Of a stretch of 40,645 nucleotides of DNA, positions 31,520 to 40,645 are shown piece by piece; position 1 is the first letter of the stretch; each line of letters begins with the position of its first letter. The notes under the pieces are model-generated. The model was given only the letters and a program-made list of their open reading frames with translations. It searched no databases and had not been told where the DNA came from. Made by a program: the position numbers and the translations under genes. The stretch comes from a virus. The stretch covers positions 1 to 40,645 of IMG/VR virus record IMGVR_UViG_3300017771_000029; one strand, given 5' to 3'.

Positions 31520-31724
31520 CTAATTCTCTCCTTAAAATTTGTAATAACAATTTTGCTTCTTCAACATTCAGACGAATGCCCTTATTCGTTGGTTTGTCAT
31601 TACGATACCAACGAATATCCATGACCTCTATATTCCAATAGACACCACGCTTTATTTTACAGTCCAGTTCAGCATTACGGACTATGGTTCCTTTAACTTC
31701 TAATTCATCTGTCAATTCATCCAC
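31503..31724 (-). CDS. PC4/Sub1-like ssDNA-binding or transcription coactivator protein
   Basis: The protein has at most 73 residues. Strands (VKGTIVRNAELDCKI, VYWNIEVMDIRWY) lead into NDKPTNKGIRLNVEEAKLLL, which follows the PC4/YdbC pattern: DIR-x-(W/Y), then PTxKGIxL, then a helix. PC4 folds bind single-stranded DNA as dimers and act in transcription or replication. The GTG at 31724 is the longest start; the TTG at 31715 has GGGGTG 6 bases upstream and may be the real one. It lies in a run of small genes between chaperonin and ligase. Confidence 0.55.
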   Translation of the reverse strand: MDELTDELEVKGTIVRNAELDCKIKRGVYWNIEVMDIRWYRNDKPTNKGIRLNVEEAKLLLQILRRELDEESK

Positions 31725-32110
31725 CCCTGTTTAAACTTGTCAAGTTCCTGTTTTGATGTAAAATATCTTGGTGTATCTAAATCATCCAAGCGATTCACAA
31801 CCCAACAAACACCACCAAGACTAGAAATCTGAACAACTTCAAATTGTCCTCCATTTACTTCCAACACTTCAGCAGTATTTATCTCAGGCACTAATCCGTA
31901 TTTACGAGTAATTTCTTTTGCTACTTCGTGCATATTTTCAGCAACATACTTAATGATATGCGCTCTTTGAATCGGAATCTTTGGTGCTACTTCAATTCCC
32001 AGTTCCCCAGTCATATTACATACTTTGCACTTGTTTCCTTCGCAAATAGGGCATTTTATTCTTTGTTTATGTGGTGCAGGTAAAACCACAGTAATTGCCT
32101 TCTTTTTCAT
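31712..32110 (-). CDS. Unknown protein with N-terminal DnaJ-like zinc motif
   Basis: The 132-residue protein has CPICEGNKCKVCNMTG near residues 20-35, a C-x2-C-x-G-x2-C-x2-C-x3-G pattern like one half of a DnaJ zinc domain. The rest is alpha/beta with no recognised fold: a helix (HIIKYVAENMHEVAKEITRK), then strands ending FTSKQELDKFKQGW. It lies four genes after GroEL in the same transcript, so a folding or RNA-binding role is conceivable. ATGA overlap with the previous tiny gene. Confidence 0.55.
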   Translation of the reverse strand: MKKKAITVVLPAPHKQRIKCPICEGNKCKVCNMTGELGIEVAPKIPIQRAHIIKYVAENMHEVAKEITRKYGLVPEINTAEVLEVNGGQFEVVQISSLGGVCWVVNRLDDLDTPRYFTSKQELDKFKQGWMN

Positions 32111-32366: not shown

Positions 32367-33880
32367 ACCAATACTGCAACATCTGTTGAATAAAACAACT
32401 GAGCAATTGACAATGCCGCTAAGAAACTGTTCTTAGAAACCTTCACAGGGTCAAAGACACCTGCTTCTGCTAAATCTTCATGCTGACATGAAACGGCATT
32501 GAATCCCCAATTCGGATTCGTTCCGTCAATTGTTTTTTCAATTTCAAATGCAGCAACCTTTGTCTGTTCAGTATAATTAGCATTATCCAAAAGAACACGA
32601 TAAGGTTTAACAACCGACTTTCTAAACCATTCAGGTGCTTCAAGCGCATGAGCAAGACGAATAAATGGAACACCTCCACCAACAACAATACCTTCTTCTA
32701 AGGCCGCTTTTGTTGCATGGAGAGCATCATCAAGCCTCTCTTTCTTTTCTCGCATTTCAATAGAAGATGATGCACCAACCTTAATCGTAGCGATTCCACC
32801 CTTTAGACGAGAGACTCTTGATTTGATACGAGCCAAGTCATGTCCTTTCAAATCAAGTGCCTGTTCTTTTAGTGCTTTGATTCTTTCTTCGGTATTACCT
32901 TCTCCACCAATAAAGGTCGTCGTTTCTTTTGTAATGATAACCTTAGCACAAGTTCCTAAATCAGTTTCGGTGAAGAGTTTAGAATCATCCTTACTTTCTT
33001 CAACAAATACTTTACCACCAATCAAGGATTGAATATCAGACAATTCATCAATCTGAGCATCTCCAAAATTAGGAGCCATAACTACTGCACATTCAACAGT
33101 CTTATTGATTAGATTCATAATCAAATTGTTAAGTGCTGAACCATCCATACCTTTGCACATAATCAAAAGGGGTCGGCTTTGGCTGGCCGAATACTCAAGC
33201 AAAGGCATAATGTCTTTAAAGTGCCGAAGGCTCATGTTTGACATGAAAACAACGGGATTGTTGAACTCAACCTTTCCACTTTCAGTATTGCACATAAGAT
33301 GACTCAAATAGCCTTCTTGAATTTCCATTCCCTCACGAACAATTAATTGTGTCTGATAGTTATTAGATTCTTCAACAGTAATTACTCCATCACGACCAAC
33401 CGTATTAAACGCTTCTTGAATCAAATTCCCAAGAGAAACATCATTATTTGCTGCAATTGTGGCTACGCTCATAATATCGCTATCATTAACTGCAATTGAG
33501 ATACTATCTAAATAGTTGATAGTTTTTTCACGAAGGGTTTCCATTAAAAGATGAAACTCATGTGTAGTCATTTTTTCTTGGTCTTTCATCAATTCATTAC
33601 AAAATGCCTGTGCAAGAATACAGGCCGTAGTAGTTCCATCACCTGAACCTTCTTGGGCTTTGCTTGCTAGATTTTGAACCAATTGAACTCCCATTTGAAC
33701 ATAAGGGTCGTCATGGGAAACATATCTAGTAATAGTTACGCCGTCATTAATTACAATAGGCGGATTACCTTGTAAAATAACTGTTTTTGCTTGTGGCCCC
33801 AATGTTGGCTTAACTGTATCAGCAACCAAATTAATTCCTTGTAGCAACTTTTGTTTTACTTCTTCTCCATGCAAAATCAT
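32357..33880 (-). CDS. groEL: Group I chaperonin (GroEL/Hsp60)
   Basis: The 507-residue protein aligns by eye with GroEL throughout: TLGPQA (26-31), NDGVTIT (45-51), the ATP motif GDGTTTA (80-86), then DDALHATKAALEEGIVVGGG with the catalytic Asp region. Near the end comes FDPVKVSKNSFLAALSIAQL. It stops at ...VLVEE without the Gly-Gly-Met tail and is about 40 residues shorter than E. coli GroEL. It would form a folding chamber, perhaps for virion proteins as in phages with own chaperonins. It overlaps the GroES-like gene by ATGA, so both are made together. Confidence 0.95.
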   Translation of the reverse strand: MILHGEEVKQKLLQGINLVADTVKPTLGPQAKTVILQGNPPIVINDGVTITRYVSHDDPYVQMGVQLVQNLASKAQEGSGDGTTTACILAQAFCNELMKDQEKMTTHEFHLLMETLREKTINYLDSISIAVNDSDIMSVATIAANNDVSLGNLIQEAFNTVGRDGVITVEESNNYQTQLIVREGMEIQEGYLSHLMCNTESGKVEFNNPVVFMSNMSLRHFKDIMPLLEYSASQSRPLLIMCKGMDGSALNNLIMNLINKTVECAVVMAPNFGDAQIDELSDIQSLIGGKVFVEESKDDSKLFTETDLGTCAKVIITKETTTFIGGEGNTEERIKALKEQALDLKGHDLARIKSRVSRLKGGIATIKVGASSSIEMREKKERLDDALHATKAALEEGIVVGGGVPFIRLAHALEAPEWFRKSVVKPYRVLLDNANYTEQTKVAAFEIEKTIDGTNPNWGFNAVSCQHEDLAEAGVFDPVKVSKNSFLAALSIAQLFYSTDVAVLVEE

Positions 33881-34095
33881 TCTAACACCCCTAGCAAATG
33901 TTCAACAGAAACAATAATCATATCTTCGTGAGTCACGAAACGGTGTCTATCATCAAATAGAACCGTTTTACCTTCCACTTCAGGCATTGAAGGACATGAA
34001 TGCACAATACCTGTGCTATCAATTTTAACTTGAATTCCCGATTTAGAAGTGGAGTTTTCTAGTTTAATTACTGCATATTTACCTAAAGCCTTCAT
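33877..34095 (-). CDS. GroES-like co-chaperonin
   Basis: ATG at 34095 follows GGAGGAAGAAGA and overlaps the upstream stop by ATGA; the 34128 start lacks a ribosome site. The 72-residue protein matches a short GroES: KYAVIKLENSTSKSGIQV (first strand and mobile-loop region), GIVHSCPSMPEVEGKTVLFD, and a last strand (IIVSVEHLLGVL). It is shorter than GroES (97) and T4 gp31 (111), with the roof and mobile loops cut down. Its gene overlaps the chaperonin start, the usual groES-groEL order. Confidence 0.7.
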   Translation of the reverse strand: MKALGKYAVIKLENSTSKSGIQVKIDSTGIVHSCPSMPEVEGKTVLFDDRHRFVTHEDMIIVSVEHLLGVLE

Positions 34096-34406
34096 TCTTC
34101 TTCCTCCAATTGTGGAATTGCTACCCATGCTCGGTTAGTTTCGGAAACCCAAGTATAAACATGAGTCTTATAAAACTCCTTCAACTTCTTATCTCGCTCA
34201 GTCCTCTTTGACTTTGCCCATTGAATGCCTTTGTTTTCCTTTGGAGTATTCTTATCATTAGGATGAGCATTTGAATGTCTCTCGGCCCTTTCCCTCAAAG
34301 AAATCTTTTCGGCTTCTCTCATCGGTCTATCTGTATATTTAGAAGCGGTGCTAAGGCCGCTTTTAATTGACTTAAACTTTTGTCCTGTTGTTATTGTTCT
34401 TCTCAT
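34092..34406 (-). CDS. Unknown 104-residue basic protein
   Basis: No family recognised. It is rich in Lys, Arg, Ser and Thr for the first 80 residues (REAEKISLRERAERHS, SKRTERDKKLKEFYKTH) and ends in four Glu that come from the ribosome site of the GroES gene. It could bind nucleic acid. Coupled by ATGA to both the JAMM gene before and GroES after. Confidence 0.55.
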   Translation of the reverse strand: MRRTITTGQKFKSIKSGLSTASKYTDRPMREAEKISLRERAERHSNAHPNDKNTPKENKGIQWAKSKRTERDKKLKEFYKTHVYTWVSETNRAWVAIPQLEEEE

Positions 34407-34981
34407 TCTTCTTCACCCCATACTTGTGTTCTAACCGGTTGATGGTCTAAATAGATTTCTAGTTCTTTAGGCTTAAAGCGGTTTTCCCAAAAACCATAAT
34501 GGCCTTCGCCACCAAGAACATATGCACATTCCATGTTTGGTTCCCAAATAGAAACAGTCCGAATATCAGTTCCACTAAAATAAGCGGCTCCAAATGGATG
34601 AGTATGAATCCAACAACGGATAGGGAGAGCCATACCGACTGGTGGTTCAAAAAAGTCTACAAATCCAGGACTTCCGGTTGAAACGAAACAATTGTTCTTC
34701 CCATCAATTACAACCTGCACTTCAAGATTGGGGAGTGTTTGTGTTGATGCTCTCCAAATAGTTTTTTGAAATTCTAAATGGTGCATAGCAACACCTTCTA
34801 GTTTCTCTTTTGGGCCAGCACAAGAATTAAATTGTTCGTCCAAAAGAACCTCGTAATGAGATTTAATCTCATTTATTGCTTTCTCTCGGAAATACTCTAA
34901 TTCTGCTTGTTCAATTTCGCTTTCATCTTTCATTTCATTCTTCTCCTGTTCTCTTAATGACCAATCGCTGCTTTTACTCAT
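34403..34981 (-). CDS. JAMM/MPN+ metalloprotease (deubiquitinase-like)
   Basis: ATG at 34981 is chosen from GAGGTGA-GTAAA-ATG; GTG at 34990 is the longer alternative. The 192-residue protein has the JAMM zinc signature HTHPFGAAYFSGTD: His126, His128, Ser136, Asp139 in H-x-H-P-x6-S-x2-D. The JAB/MPN strands surround it, and a glutamate near residue 62 or 71 could be the upstream catalytic Glu. Such enzymes cut isopeptide bonds or process ubiquitin-like proteins. The E1/ThiF-like gene lies two genes away in the same transcript. About 60 N-terminal residues are a charged helix of unknown role. Confidence 0.8.
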   Translation of the reverse strand: MSKSSDWSLREQEKNEMKDESEIEQAELEYFREKAINEIKSHYEVLLDEQFNSCAGPKEKLEGVAMHHLEFQKTIWRASTQTLPNLEVQVVIDGKNNCFVSTGSPGFVDFFEPPVGMALPIRCWIHTHPFGAAYFSGTDIRTVSIWEPNMECAYVLGGEGHYGFWENRFKPKELEIYLDHQPVRTQVWGEEE

Positions 34982-34982
34982 T

Positions 34983-35900
34983 TTACTCACCTCGGATTTT
35001 CTGCAACTTGGCCTTCAACTTAGCCTCTTTCTTAGCCTTCTTTCGCTCTTTCCGTAGCGTTCTGCGGCTCTTTTTGGGTGTTGGGTTCTGTGCCTTCTTG
35101 CGGCTCTTGATTTCCTTAGAAGCCTCCACAAGCATAGAGATATGCTCAGGCTTTGTGCTATCAACCAACTTTTCTAAGCGGCTTGCGATAACACCGTATG
35201 GCCGATTAAATCGGTTTCGGGCCTCGTCAATTGAAAGTTCGTAAAAGTTCAAGATGAGGTCATAGTCCTGTTCTTTTGTCCAACGGGGAGTATATTTCCT
35301 GCCGTTGTTTCCGTGAATCTTTTTCTTCTTGACTGTCTTTTGCTCAGGTTTTACTGCCTTTGATTCTCCTTTCAACTTTTGCCAGCGATTACGGATAGCC
35401 GATTCTGTTCGTGATTGAAGTGGGAGAGCAAATGCTTCCTTTCTGCTTTTACACGCCATAATCATTTCATCTTCTTTTTTTGACCACTTAAGGGCCGTTC
35501 TCTTTGTTTTCATCTTCTTTCTCTCCTTAATTTTTGTTTTTATTGTTTTGATTTCAACCTCTACTTTCTTTTCAGTCGCTAGATGTCTTTTTACGACTTC
35601 ATCAATATTTGATTTATTGATTTTATGACCAAATTGTTCATTGTAGCCATTAAGAATCTTCTTCATTGAAAAGTGATTCAAATAACAACCGGTAATAAAT
35701 TCAATTTGCTCTGGTGTAAATTCTTTTGCAAAATCAACATCAAATAAATTACGATATTTGGTGCCAATATTAGCGGGACTTCTCCAAATTCCGAACTTCT
35801 CTTCCATAGAGAAAGCAATGTTTTCCCATGTTTGTTTTTTTGTTCTACAAACAACAAGAAAAGCCAGTTGTTCTTCTGTCCATTTATTATTTTTACTCAT
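34983..35900 (-). CDS. Protein with Myb/SANT-like DNA-binding repeats
   Basis: The 305-residue protein contains at least three Trp-led helical repeats: KWTEEQLAFLVVC (7-), LKWSKKEDEMIMAC with ESAIRNRWQKL (138-176), and PRWTKEQDYDLILNFY with GVIASRLEKL (206-245). A weaker one begins near residue 60 (EFTPEQIEFI). The spacing and the Trp-x-x-(E/D) pattern are those of Myb/SANT domains. Linkers and the last 40 residues are strongly basic. It most likely binds double-stranded DNA, as regulator or packaging protein. It lies between the JAMM and E1-like genes, overlapping the latter by ATGA. Confidence 0.65.
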   Translation of the reverse strand: MSKNNKWTEEQLAFLVVCRTKKQTWENIAFSMEEKFGIWRSPANIGTKYRNLFDVDFAKEFTPEQIEFITGCYLNHFSMKKILNGYNEQFGHKINKSNIDEVVKRHLATEKKVEVEIKTIKTKIKERKKMKTKRTALKWSKKEDEMIMACKSRKEAFALPLQSRTESAIRNRWQKLKGESKAVKPEQKTVKKKKIHGNNGRKYTPRWTKEQDYDLILNFYELSIDEARNRFNRPYGVIASRLEKLVDSTKPEHISMLVEASKEIKSRKKAQNPTPKKSRRTLRKERKKAKKEAKLKAKLQKIRGE

Positions 35901-36454
35901 ACATTCACCACCATATAATCTCTCACTTCTTCTTCATTGAAGTATCTTTGAATCCATTGTGCGCCTAATCCTGCAATTGCGACCTGCATGAAATGAACAT
36001 TACTATTTGTTCCATCCCATGAATCTCCTTGACAACTGAAAGAACCTTCTTCACCTGCTAAAAGCATATCATACATTTTCGGGTCTGCCTTGTGCGACAC
36101 AAGGGCGGCATTTCTGCCTTGCGCTCGTAAGTCAAGCCATTTAAGGGTTGTGTTGTATAAGGTTCGCCTCACGCTCAAGTTATCAACGCAACAAATCACA
36201 AGGTCATAGCCTTGCATTTGTTTTGCAGTTAAAACTGGGTATTTACTGAATGTTATAACTGATTCATAAGAATCCATCATAACACTAGCCTTATTCTGTC
36301 CAACATGGCCTTTCTTAAAGTTTTGATAGGGTAGGTTTTTTGTTTCCACTCCATCTGGGTCAGCCACATGAATGTGGTAAAGACCAACTTTATCTAATGT
36401 AGGAATTAGAAAACTTCCAATTCCACCTGCTCCAATTACTAATATTTTTCTCAT
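35897..36454 (-). CDS. E1/ThiF-like adenylating enzyme
   Basis: ATG at 36454 is preferred because GGGAGG lies 9 bases upstream; 36463 has no spacing. The 185-residue protein is a compact ThiF/E1 fold: GAGGIGS (8-14) nucleotide loop, a strand with ADPDGVETKNLPYQ (Asp32, Asp34, Asn40, Gln44), GQNKA (Lys55), and CCVDN (Asp91). Cys141 in GSFSCQGD is a candidate thioester cysteine. There are no CxxC zinc knuckles. E1-like enzymes activate the C-terminus of ubiquitin-like or sulphur-carrier proteins with ATP. No carrier protein was found nearby. A ThiF-like dinucleotide fold with another substrate remains possible. Confidence 0.8.
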   Translation of the reverse strand: MRKILVIGAGGIGSFLIPTLDKVGLYHIHVADPDGVETKNLPYQNFKKGHVGQNKASVMMDSYESVITFSKYPVLTAKQMQGYDLVICCVDNLSVRRTLYNTTLKWLDLRAQGRNAALVSHKADPKMYDMLLAGEEGSFSCQGDSWDGTNSNVHFMQVAIAGLGAQWIQRYFNEEEVRDYMVVNV

Positions 36455-36636
36455 TATTCCCATCCTCCCATTTCTTTTGTATATCTAATTGCTTCTAAAT
36501 CCCAGACTCGCTGGCATTCAAGACATTCTGCTGTTTTATCTGTTGGTTTCCATTGAACCACCGTTGGACAATGACCAAAAGGCACATCACCAAGGCAAAT
36601 ACAAGTAAAACCTGTTATTAATTTATCTTCTCTCAT
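36454..36636 (-). CDS. 60-residue zinc-binding protein
   Basis: The protein has Cys12, Cys14, Cys23 and later CLECQ (Cys38, Cys41), so a zinc knuckle is probable. The rest is not recognised. It ends in Gly-Gly-Trp-Glu, but these codons coincide with the GGGAGG ribosome site of the next gene, so the terminal Gly-Gly is not evidence of a ubiquitin-like protein. The start has the GGAGGAATAAATATG cassette, and the stop overlaps the E1-like start (TAATG). Confidence 0.55.
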   Translation of the reverse strand: MREDKLITGFTCICLGDVPFGHCPTVVQWKPTDKTAECLECQRVWDLEAIRYTKEMGGWE

Positions 36637-36973: not shown

Positions 36974-37831
36974 TTATTCACCTAATTCACTTAGTTGTTT
37001 TCCCTTCACTTGACTGGCTAGTTTTAAACCAATCATAGATAGAATTGCTTTTGTTTGTCTCCTAATGTTGAAGCGAGAAAACCCTGTTTTCTTCGTGATT
37101 AGGTTTTGAGTTATCAGCGTGTTCACATTCATGTTTGCTGAAATCCAAATAATTGACGCATAATATGACCTTCCTTTATTGAAGGTATTCTGTGCGACCT
37201 TTGTTTCAAAAAATTCTAATACTTTAATTGTCTGTCTCCTAAACACCAAATCATCTGTAATATCATTGAGTGTTTTTTCAAGAAGATACTGAGGATTTAC
37301 AGGATTGTATCCTGCCTTGTTTCTAAAGGCTTGGTTAATTTTTCTAACCAGTCTCTTAACTGATTTAAGATTAGTATCAAATTCAGCCGAAACTTCTGCA
37401 AATGTATGAGGAGTTCCATTTTCTCTCAAAGCATAGAAAACAACTGCTGTTGCTCTCGCTTCAATTTGACTTCTTCCAAATATGCCTTTGTTATGTAAGT
37501 CAAGATACAGTTTCTCAACACGCTCATTTATTCCCAAATGAGGAGCAACATGGGCTAAAATCATATTACAATGCATTAAAGCACCTTGAATATGTTGAGG
37601 AATCACGCTACTCTTACCGAACTTATTGAACTTATAAGAGCCTTTACCCGTGATAACTGAACCTAATCTGCCTTTATCAGCAGAATGCTTCAGATTCCCG
37701 CCCGTATCTAAAATATGAACAGTTTCTTCAAACATCTCTTGGACTAAAATAAGTCCACAGTCATTACAGACTCTTTCGCCCTGTATCTCATTAAATGAGT
37801 TATTATTGCTACCACATTCATCGCAAATCAT
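36974..37831 (-). CDS. tfb: Transcription factor B (TFB/TFIIB)
   Basis: ATG at 37831 follows AGGATTGATAGA; TTG at 37840 is the alternative. The 285-residue protein has an N-terminal zinc ribbon (Cys3, Cys6, Cys22, Cys25), a B-finger/linker segment and two cyclin-like repeats (about 80-180 and 190-280), with FAEVSAEFDTNLKSVKRLVRKI as the helix-turn-helix of the first. Length fits archaeal TFB (about 300). It would recruit archaeal RNA polymerase to promoters, perhaps shifting transcription to viral genes. Its presence strongly supports an archaeal host. It overlaps the next upstream gene by 14 bases. Confidence 0.9.
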   Translation of the reverse strand: MICDECGSNNNSFNEIQGERVCNDCGLILVQEMFEETVHILDTGGNLKHSADKGRLGSVITGKGSYKFNKFGKSSVIPQHIQGALMHCNMILAHVAPHLGINERVEKLYLDLHNKGIFGRSQIEARATAVVFYALRENGTPHTFAEVSAEFDTNLKSVKRLVRKINQAFRNKAGYNPVNPQYLLEKTLNDITDDLVFRRQTIKVLEFFETKVAQNTFNKGRSYYASIIWISANMNVNTLITQNLITKKTGFSRFNIRRQTKAILSMIGLKLASQVKGKQLSELGE

Positions 37832-38969
37832 TTCTATCAATCCTATATTTATTTGGTTCGGCGGAAAGATACCGCTTAATCGTATTTACTATTTTTATTG
37901 TAAAAGAATCATTTAATAAGGCTAATGCTCTTGCGGCAAATTGGTCGCCTAATGGAGAACCTTCGGCCATATTATCAATACAAATCGGGCCTCGCCAATC
38001 TGGGTCAGTAAATACCTTATTTTTAGAATCATCATCCTCTGATTTTATTATTTCAACAATTGGTTGCCATACATAAGTTGAAACCATTTGAATACCGGAC
38101 TTATACCTATTATTGGTCAATTTCCAGTCATAGTCTTTACCTCTAATAAAGAGACTGTTCAATTCTCCATCATCATCGTATTCAGCAGATAGTCGGCCTT
38201 TGTGTTGAACCAACATATCAGCCACCAATTCTAATGCTCTTGCATCTACAATATCCTGCATTCGGTTTTGCATCAAAAAGGCAACCATTACTTTCAATTC
38301 AGCCACCGTGGGTTCACGACCCATCAATCTAGTGTATAGGGATTTAGGAGAAAGATACTTCCAAGAACCCCTTCGCTTACCATGAAGATAAAAATTACAG
38401 TAAGAGTCTAATTGTTTCGGAGTTATCTCACCCCAAACACCATCGCTAATTTCCATAGCAAGCATCTTATCATCAATTTGCACGACATTCAAACGAACCT
38501 CTTGCTTCTCAAAGTCTTGGAAGAAATGAAACGGAGCACGATTTTCAATACAATATTTGACATTCTCTGGTAAATTAAGAGTAGCATACAAAGCAGATAG
38601 CAAAATTTCTGGCTTCTTTTCAAAACATGATTTGAAAGTGATTCTTGCTAGTGCTGAACAAATAGTCGCAAGGCTGTATGCCTTGCCGTTTAATTGATAA
38701 CGAATACCTTCTCTTGAAAGAACAACTGGGCAACCTTCAATAAAAACAATATGGTTAAAACTAAACCCAAATCCTCCCCTCATGTAAGACCTTGACTTTC
38801 TAGGAGAGATAATGTTCTTCCAAAATACTTCTAATCCTGCCTGAATAGGGTCTTTAGAGCCTCGGTCAAACCTAACCGTTGTGATTTCTGCAAATGCGAA
38901 AGTAGCACAAGTAATATTTGTTTCAAAATAATCTTGGCTGTCATCCGGTTTTCTAATTCTTACTTTCAT
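37818..38969 (-). CDS. Unknown 383-residue protein
   Basis: No family recognised. It is a mixed alpha/beta protein with strands at the start (FAFAEITTVRFDRG), a helix (LEVFWKNI), and later FHFFQDFEKQEVRLNVVQI. It ends with a helical segment (DQFAARALALLNDSFTIKIVNTIKRYL). It contains several Cys but no obvious metal motif, and no P-loop. Position between ribonucleotide reductase and TFB suggests an early role. It overlaps TFB by 14 bases. Confidence 0.6.
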   Translation of the reverse strand: MKVRIRKPDDSQDYFETNITCATFAFAEITTVRFDRGSKDPIQAGLEVFWKNIISPRKSRSYMRGGFGFSFNHIVFIEGCPVVLSREGIRYQLNGKAYSLATICSALARITFKSCFEKKPEILLSALYATLNLPENVKYCIENRAPFHFFQDFEKQEVRLNVVQIDDKMLAMEISDGVWGEITPKQLDSYCNFYLHGKRRGSWKYLSPKSLYTRLMGREPTVAELKVMVAFLMQNRMQDIVDARALELVADMLVQHKGRLSAEYDDDGELNSLFIRGKDYDWKLTNNRYKSGIQMVSTYVWQPIVEIIKSEDDDSKNKVFTDPDWRGPICIDNMAEGSPLGDQFAARALALLNDSFTIKIVNTIKRYLSAEPNKYRIDRNDLR

Positions 38970-39484: not shown

Positions 39485-40645
39485 TCAGATTTCGCAAGCC
39501 CCACCTGCACAGGCCAATTCGCCTGAAAGGTCGGTATCATCCTGTAATTCTTCAATTAAGGTCAAATCAATATCTTGAAGTGCTTCAGTCAATTTATTAT
39601 AGGTTTCTTTATCGCAGGTTTCAAAAGGTGCTTGGGTATATGTTCCTCCATCATAAGGAAGAACAGACAGACCATTATAGTAATGTCGGTTTAGCCACAT
39701 CCAATCGGCTACTGTTTCCCATTCATCCTCTTTGATTGAGACTGTTGCGGAAACATTGTGAGTATTTAATCCATCATTATGTCCTGCACGAACCCAACGA
39801 ATGCTAAAGTTTTTGACCCGTTCTAACAAATCAAATACCGACTCATGGCGAATAATTGCTGATTCGGGTGCTTTTTGAGGAACTGAAATAACTGCCTGTT
39901 CGTGCGGATTGAAAAACTCGTCCTCAACCAATTCAGGGTGATTGTTTGCGAGATAACCATAGATTGCTTCATTCTTCCCAACACGAAGGCGACGAATATA
40001 ATATTCATCGTGATAAGCATGAATGCCACTACTAGTTCCGAGAACAAGGGAAGTAGTTCCAGCAGGTTTTACACAGGTTGTTCTTGAAGCAGGATTAATA
40101 CCAATCAACTTAGCAACCTTTTCATTCTCTTTCTTTACTTCATAAGCGGCCATTTCTAAATCTAAGTTCTCAACAACATTTGAAGCGATGCCTGTCATGG
40201 AAACACCGAGTAAAGCATCTTTTTCTGTCGCTTTACGCCAAACTTCACGAAGATAATGAAAATCAGTATATCCTGCTTGAAGCGTTCCAAGAAAAGCGGC
40301 GGCTGAAACTCTTGATTCTAAATCTGCTTGGTCAGCAATATCCGAAGCATTTACTTCGGTTAAGTTGCAGAATTGATATGGTCGTAGAGCAATTTCACAA
40401 CACGGGTTTGTTCCCCAGTCTTTGTCATTATTGAAATAAATCCCAGGTTCTCCTGAACCTGATGCTTTAATCCTATTCCACAAATCCATAAAGAAATCTT
40501 TCGTGACTCTATGCCGCAAAAGAACTGCTGAATTGTTTGCCCTGCCTCTTTGGGGATTGTTTTCCCACCAATTACCGGACTTACAAGCAATCATTTCATG
40601 GTCGTCTGCTGAAAATAAACTAATCATAGCCGCACGACGAATACC
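39485..40645 (-). CDS. nrdJ: Adenosylcobalamin-dependent (class II) ribonucleotide reductase, 5'-partial
   Basis: The frame is open across the window edge (GIRRAA before the first Met at 40627), so only about 386 C-terminal residues are seen. NPCCEIALRP...CNLTEVN holds the catalytic Cys, Glu and substrate-binding region. PAGTTSLVLGTSSGIH is the phosphate-binding region, and the end CAGGACEI has the redox cysteine pair (C-x4-C). These fit class II enzymes, which reduce ribonucleotides with B12. It would supply dNTPs for viral replication. The class assignment over class I rests on the overall pattern near the CNL region and the missing N-terminus could change it. Confidence 0.8.
   Translation of the reverse strand, partial: GIRRAAMISLFSADDHEMIACKSGNWWENNPQRGRANNSAVLLRHRVTKDFFMDLWNRIKASGSGEPGIYFNNDKDWGTNPCCEIALRPYQFCNLTEVNASDIADQADLESRVSAAAFLGTLQAGYTDFHYLREVWRKATEKDALLGVSMTGIASNVVENLDLEMAAYEVKKENEKVAKLIGINPASRTTCVKPAGTTSLVLGTSSGIHAYHDEYYIRRLRVGKNEAIYGYLANNHPELVEDEFFNPHEQAVISVPQKAPESAIIRHESVFDLLERVKNFSIRWVRAGHNDGLNTHNVSATVSIKEDEWETVADWMWLNRHYYNGLSVLPYDGGTYTQAPFETCDKETYNKLTEALQDIDLTLIEELQDDTDLSGELACAGGACEI

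Follow-up and report, generated by a model that had tools for sequence, protein, structure and literature searches.

The window analysed here, the whole 40,645 nt of IMG/VR record IMGVR_UViG_3300017771_000029, is a fragment of a magrovirus, i.e. a tailed virus of marine Poseidoniales. It contains genes for an E1-like activating enzyme and a JAMM metalloprotease (Table 1). Genes in their vicinity encode TFB, MazG-like and GroES-like proteins, a GroEL-like chaperonin, DNA ligase, an RFC-like clamp loader and ribonucleotide reductase (RNR), a neighbourhood that agrees with the gene content published for magroviruses (PMC10768690, PMC12999244). The E1 and JAMM genes are located in the replication/transcription cluster (TFB, RNR, MazG, chaperonin, RFC, helicase), on the replication strand and apart from the structural genes. 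Successive overlaps of 4–37 nt link the genes for E1, a Myb-like protein, JAMM, g104, the GroES-like protein and the GroEL-like chaperonin, and because of these overlaps the run from E1 to the chaperonin is consistent with one transcript. The first-pass annotation had described the E1 and JAMM genes as lying two genes apart in one transcript; the overlaps fit the latter part of this description, but only one gene, that of the Myb-like protein, separates the two.

Table 1. Features of the locus, with coordinates in the window
Feature	Length (aa)	Position	Strand	Distinguishing marks
JAMM/MPN+ metalloprotease	195	34403..34990	-	E90, H129-x-H131-P-x6-S139-x2-D142
Myb-like protein between E1 and JAMM	305	34983..35900	-	Myb_DNA-binding 21.8 bits; phrog_323
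E1-like (ThiF/MoeB fold) activating enzyme	188	35897..36463	-	Pfam ThiF
g383, conserved protein	383	37818..38969	-	invariant GxICIDN (Cys330)
Ribonucleotide reductase fragment		39485..40645	-	frame open at 40645, window end

The GroES-like protein (83 aa, window 33877–34128), whose gene adjoins that of the GroEL-like chaperonin, falls below Pfam detection and was recognised by eye and from published magrovirus descriptions. Overlapping the start of E1 is a gene for a Cys-rich, zinc-ribbon-like protein of 60 aa (window 36454–36636), found in only a few loci. At the gene ends at window positions 34403, 34092, 30910 and 32357, the proteins terminate in -EE or -EEE, because translation runs in frame through the ribosome-binding site of the next gene (GGTGA or GGAGG followed by a purine spacer). 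The C-terminal -GEEE common to JAMM and its neighbours was considered as a possible tag and rejected, since the DNA involved, GGTGA/GGAGG-AGAAGA-ATG, is that next gene's ribosome-binding site.

The E1-like enzyme, the JAMM protease and the gene between them

Both genes called in the first-pass annotation are real and lie where it had placed them. Pfam ThiF matches the E1-like protein at 61 bits (E 1.3e-16), against a cut-off of 28.1, and the HxHPx6SxxD motif of the JAMM protein is intact. The best NCBIfam neighbours of E1 are ThiF and MoeB, with NCBIfam ThiF scoring 48.7 bits, below its cut-off of 275. The E1 protein carries GAGGIGS (residues 11–17), D35-x-D37, N43, Q47, K58, D94 and Cys144, the last of which aligns with the ThiF-type Cys (MAFFT alignment) and is a candidate for the catalytic Cys in the crossover loop. 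Numbering here is from 36463; the first-pass annotation began at Met4 (36454), and Asp94 and Cys144 are the Asp91 and Cys141 named there. Tyr46 occupies the place of the usual NLxRQ Arg, and E1 has no CxxC zinc motif. Among 54–55 aligned homologues, GxGGIGS, D35, D37, N43, Q47, K58, D94 and C144 are invariant or nearly so. Judged from the sequence, the adenylation residue set is thus present and conserved, bar the NLxRQ Arg.

Family-profile matches to the JAMM protein are weak, so its assignment rests on the conserved motif. Prok-JAB scores 19.8 bits (E 7.6e-4), below the Pfam cut-off, and a profile built from 17 JAMM relatives has weak PDB matches to AMSH and Rpn11 (E about 0.005–0.05). E90, the presumed catalytic Glu, is invariant or nearly so in the 54–55 aligned homologues, as are H129, H131, S139 and D142. 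HxHPx6SxxD is intact in 75/75 complete JAMM copies, one more copy being cut by a contig end.

IMG/VR contains 62 relatives of the E1 protein, at 59–95% identity. Median dN/dS is 0.16 for E1, 0.41 for JAMM and 0.20 for the ubiquitin-like protein described below, indicating that all three genes are under purifying selection. The number and identity range of the E1 relatives, together with the dN/dS medians for E1 and JAMM, place the E1-JAMM observation far above chance.

The Myb-like gene had been proposed in the first-pass annotation as a possible part of the same module. This idea does not hold up: 10 of the 59 loci have no detected Myb-like homologue, and the E1 and JAMM genes directly abut in 6 of the 10. 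On the evidence of these loci, the Myb-like gene is a dispensable neighbour rather than a fixed part of the module.

A ubiquitin-like partner and the co-occurrence of the trio

The first-pass annotation had called for a search for beta-grasp proteins ending in Gly-Gly. We read nine related records in full and clustered their open frames to look for such a protein. A family of 66–70 aa proteins, hereafter Ubl, was present in 9/9 records, with an invariant VGG end; in all nine the C-terminus reads IVGG, with no, one or two variable residues after it. A profile of this family gave one match per record in 16/16 related records searched (the nine included) and no match within the window itself, which ends inside the RNR gene. 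The Ubl gene of relatives is found just upstream of RNR (e.g. Ubl at L078:15149-15355 and the RNR-containing frame at L078:15815-17689), 2.3–7 kb from E1 and outside the overlapping gene run. Given this arrangement and the end of the window inside RNR, the Ubl gene of this virus is expected some 1.4 kb past position 40645.

An AlphaFold model of Ubl (mean pLDDT 87) has the order strand-strand-helix-strand-strand-helix-strand with a loose C-terminus, a predicted beta-grasp fold. When this model was compared with the PDB by Foldseek, almost all of the matches listed were ubiquitin, ISG15, SUMO, NEDD8, MoaD or ThiS; the best E value was 4e-3 (none reaching 1e-3), with probability up to 0.99 and listed TM-scores mostly of 0.4–0.6. 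Matches in BFVD include giant-virus ubiquitins. No Pfam family matches Ubl above its cut-off, and the ThiS family has no match at E 1 in any of 22 records, Ubl included (control matched in 13/14). A ribosome-binding-site artefact was rejected as the source of the VGG end: 14 different codon pairs spell the GG, and beyond it come a stop codon and non-coding DNA, with no gene start. These features argue that the GG is constrained as protein. The Ubl core contains 0–1 lysines in 51/55 sequences and none is conserved, which makes lysine-linked chains unlikely and suggests that Ubl would be used as single tags.

In IMG/VR, a JAMM gene follows E1 in the E1 relatives wherever the contig continues. 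Even in the divergent records L054, L057 and L058, which have no detectable Myb, g104, GroES or chaperonin homologues, JAMM is kept. As these records had been found via E1, we tested for selection bias using two other baits, Ubl and an unrelated gene. The Ubl bait retrieved 146 IMG/VR relatives, of which 80 were kept; E1 and JAMM are both present in 76, and a contig end truncates the remaining four, so that the pair is found in 76/76 loci with enough flank. The E1 active-site residues are likewise conserved in this locus set, and every Ubl sequence has VGG with a tail of 0–2 aa. With the unrelated core gene (window 31712–32110) as bait, both genes were seen in 57 of 79 loci; in the remaining 22 the bait lies too near a contig end for E1, as judged from bait position, giving 57/57 for loci with enough flank. 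The first-pass annotation had named failure of the two genes to co-occur in related genomes as grounds against its reading; every related genome with enough flank has both. In the loci surveyed, Ubl, E1 and JAMM are always together and form part of the magrovirus core genome.

A scan of genome contigs gave only viral contigs, apparently mis-binned, plus a Marinomonas ThiF. Three magrovirus-like contigs (L196, L197 and L198) are in MAGs named Maricaulis and Altibacter (GTDB), probably through mis-binning of archaeal virus DNA. Their E1 proteins are 52–55% identical and JAMM is kept; Ubl was seen in L197, and the other two contigs may stop short of the place where it would be. The record IMGVR_UViG_3300021958_000021 (L011 and L055, 184733 bp) has two different magrovirus E1 copies, 88 and 89% identical to that of the window, and probably represents two genomes joined by assembly.

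A fourth conserved protein, g383, was present in 9/9 records; in relatives its gene is on the same strand, between Ubl and E1. Cys330, in a GxICIDN motif that recalls the E2 active-site motif, is invariant in 35/35 relatives. A multi-domain model of g383 gave no significant fold match, with one UQ_con domain at E 0.9, and no PDB entry matches its sequence. Prok-E2_B gave no match, and no E2 or E3 was recognised, the UQ_con search being one that had no working control. It is possible that g383 is an E2-like or other Cys enzyme; we regard it as a weak E2 candidate and a lead.

A proposed protein-tagging pathway and its alternatives

By sequence and model, the trio has the hallmarks of a modifier, its activator and a protease: a beta-grasp protein ending in VGG(+0–2), a minimal E1 with its adenylation residues and a candidate catalytic Cys, and a JAMM with an intact metal-binding motif. 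We estimate a probability of about 60% that these core genes specify a viral Ubl-E1-JAMM modification pathway, one that resembles archaeal sampylation and includes no recognised E2. The first-pass annotation had pointed to a ubiquitin-like system, and the predicted Gly-Gly beta-grasp partner, always found with the E1-JAMM pair, bears this out; its SAMP-like reading is also supported. In the proposed pathway, JAMM would trim the 1–2 residue tail of Ubl where one exists, and E1 would adenylate the exposed Gly-Gly and load Ubl on Cys144. From there Ubl would pass to lysines on target proteins, with no E2 of its own, as sampylation does in archaea, or through an unrecognised E2, and JAMM would take the tag off again. 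Sampylation in Haloferax sets an archaeal example for such a pathway: modification by SAMP1 is reversed by HvJAMM1 (PMC4443979), and turnover of the transcription factor TBP2 is driven by UbaA/SAMP2 (PMC4895103). Judging by the position of the trio in the replication/transcription cluster, its targets are more likely to be involved in host takeover or in replication of the virus than in tail assembly.

The main rival is a sulfur-carrier pathway, which is made of the same three protein kinds. E1 would adenylate Ubl, a donor would convert the Gly-Gly to a thiocarboxylate, and the sulfur would pass to a nucleotide, tRNA or cofactor, with JAMM only trimming the precursor or releasing the product, as it does in QbsD/QbsE and Mec/CysO. 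Ubl tails of 1–2 residues resemble a sulfur-carrier precursor awaiting trimming, and the NCBIfam neighbours of E1 and the presence of MoaD and ThiS among the Ubl fold matches fit this scheme as well. However, no match to ThiS, rhodanese or Aminotran_5 (cysteine desulfurase) was found in the 13–22 records searched, with controls matched; for rhodanese and Aminotran_5 the search covered 13 records, and the host could supply a sulfur enzyme. Moreover, the JAMM motif is intact in 18 loci whose Ubl carries no tail and hence needs no trimming, which argues that JAMM probably also deconjugates. Retention of the motif in these loci and the lack of a rhodanese or Aminotran_5 gene favour conjugation, and we consider a sulfur carrier unlikely.

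Another possibility is that Ubl, E1 and JAMM form no pathway of their own and instead act by mimicry, as decoy, competitor or stripper of SAMP-like or antiviral Ubl conjugation in the host. Euryarchaea possess E1, SAMP and JAMM proteins (PMC4443979, PMC4895103), a JAMM could strip host tags, and the genes sit in what, from its neighbours, we take to be an early-type cluster. Loss of catalysis would be expected of decoys, whereas the predicted active residues are retained in all three proteins, which always occur together, so that a purely counter-defensive role appears improbable. A role in virion assembly, like that of lambda TAPI/TAPK, in which tail assembly involves a Ubl domain and a JAB peptidase, is the least credible of the alternatives: the BFVD fold matches of Ubl include tail-tip J and further phage proteins and a TAPI-JAB pairing has been described, but the TAPI clusters of that description are sited in tail genes and lack E1 (Iyer et al. 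2006, PMC1779556), whereas the magrovirus genes are on the replication strand, apart from the structural genes, and their JAMM has no NlpC/P60 domain (Pfam).

The conjugation reading can be extended. We would give even odds to a complete and self-sufficient pathway (modifier, E1, deconjugating JAMM and perhaps g383 as a new kind of E2) by which magroviruses infecting Poseidoniales re-program host or viral replication proteins. These data suggest that magroviruses supply the cell they infect with a protein-tagging pathway of their own. If so, this would be, among prokaryotic viruses, a case of a ubiquitin-type signalling pathway brought by the virus, and viruses too would be users of ubiquitin-like tagging in the prokaryotic arms race, here widespread tailed viruses whose hosts, the Poseidoniales, are abundant marine archaea. 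As a set of only three genes, the trio is small enough for reconstitution and direct testing.

Comparison with known systems

Eukaryotic viruses are known to have ubiquitin systems, and work on bacterial Ubl-E1-JAB operons has mostly treated them as cellular defence. The parts of the trio are of known kinds; for their setting and combination we found no description in the literature searched. ThiF, ubiquitin and JAB go unmentioned in two family profiles and in the main texts of the magrovirus and archaeal-virus literature searched by term, a body that excludes Philosof 2017, Zhou 2023 and Prabhu 2025, where annotation of E1 or JAMM is possible.

Archaeal sampylation (SAMP1/2, UbaA, HvJAMM1) shares with the magrovirus trio a Gly-Gly beta-grasp modifier, a single E1, a single JAMM, the lack of a recognised E2 and the archaeal setting. 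The magrovirus system differs in that it is virus-encoded, its E1 is a lone 188-aa domain, and its Ubl has no ThiS sequence match and carries a tail of 0–2 residues after the GG. The E1 is also no UbaA equivalog, the UbaA model scoring 31.6 bits against a cut-off of 450.

Bacterial Ubl-E1-(E2)-JAB operons (the Iyer 2006 types, CBASS Cap2/Cap3 and Bil) likewise encode an E1 and a JAMM together, and the presumed role of the latter is to mature the Ubl and strip it off again. In contrast, the magrovirus genes are viral core genes rather than parts of defence islands, and are accompanied by no CD-NTase, E1-E2 fusion or recognised E2. The link to CBASS drawn in the first-pass annotation was therefore not sustained: SMODS (CD-NTase) has no match in 14 records (control matched), which argues against type II membership, and the PADLOC E1-E2 models match only in their E1 part, the magrovirus protein being a single domain. 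A PRTRC system was rejected too, the PRTRC ThiF equivalog scoring 44.6 bits against a cut-off of 144.75. The QbsC/QbsD/QbsE and CysO/Mec/MoeZ sets have an E1 and a Ubl precursor whose short extension is trimmed by JAMM; unlike these, the magrovirus set has no sulfur donor or acceptor gene that we could find, and keeps JAMM where Ubl has no tail.

Among deposited phages, the best E1 matches are in crass-like phages, at about 30% identity. In crAss001, the E1 (gp76) adjoins gp77, a protein with the motif IHSHx7SGTD and a weak match to Prok-JAB, between the genes for primase and uracil-DNA glycosylase. In the same region (L076:5244-10466, gp79–gp75), the conserved N-terminal domain of gp79 resembles a ubiquitin-like fold in sequence, and in gp78 a conserved HSHV...PCxGxGPI stretch recalls E2-like proteins; both were noted by eye and have no Pfam match. 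An AIVGG in the N-terminus of the crAss001 E1 was considered as a Ubl-like end and put down to chance, as it is absent from the E1 of DAC15 and of bajarodcaudo. The crass-like module differs from that of magroviruses in its longer proteins, its bacterial host and the lack of a detected homologue of magrovirus Ubl, but in both E1 lies next to JAMM in a replication gene cluster. By this parallel, the pairing occurs in such clusters in two distant virus groups, which suggests that the magrovirus case is no single accident.
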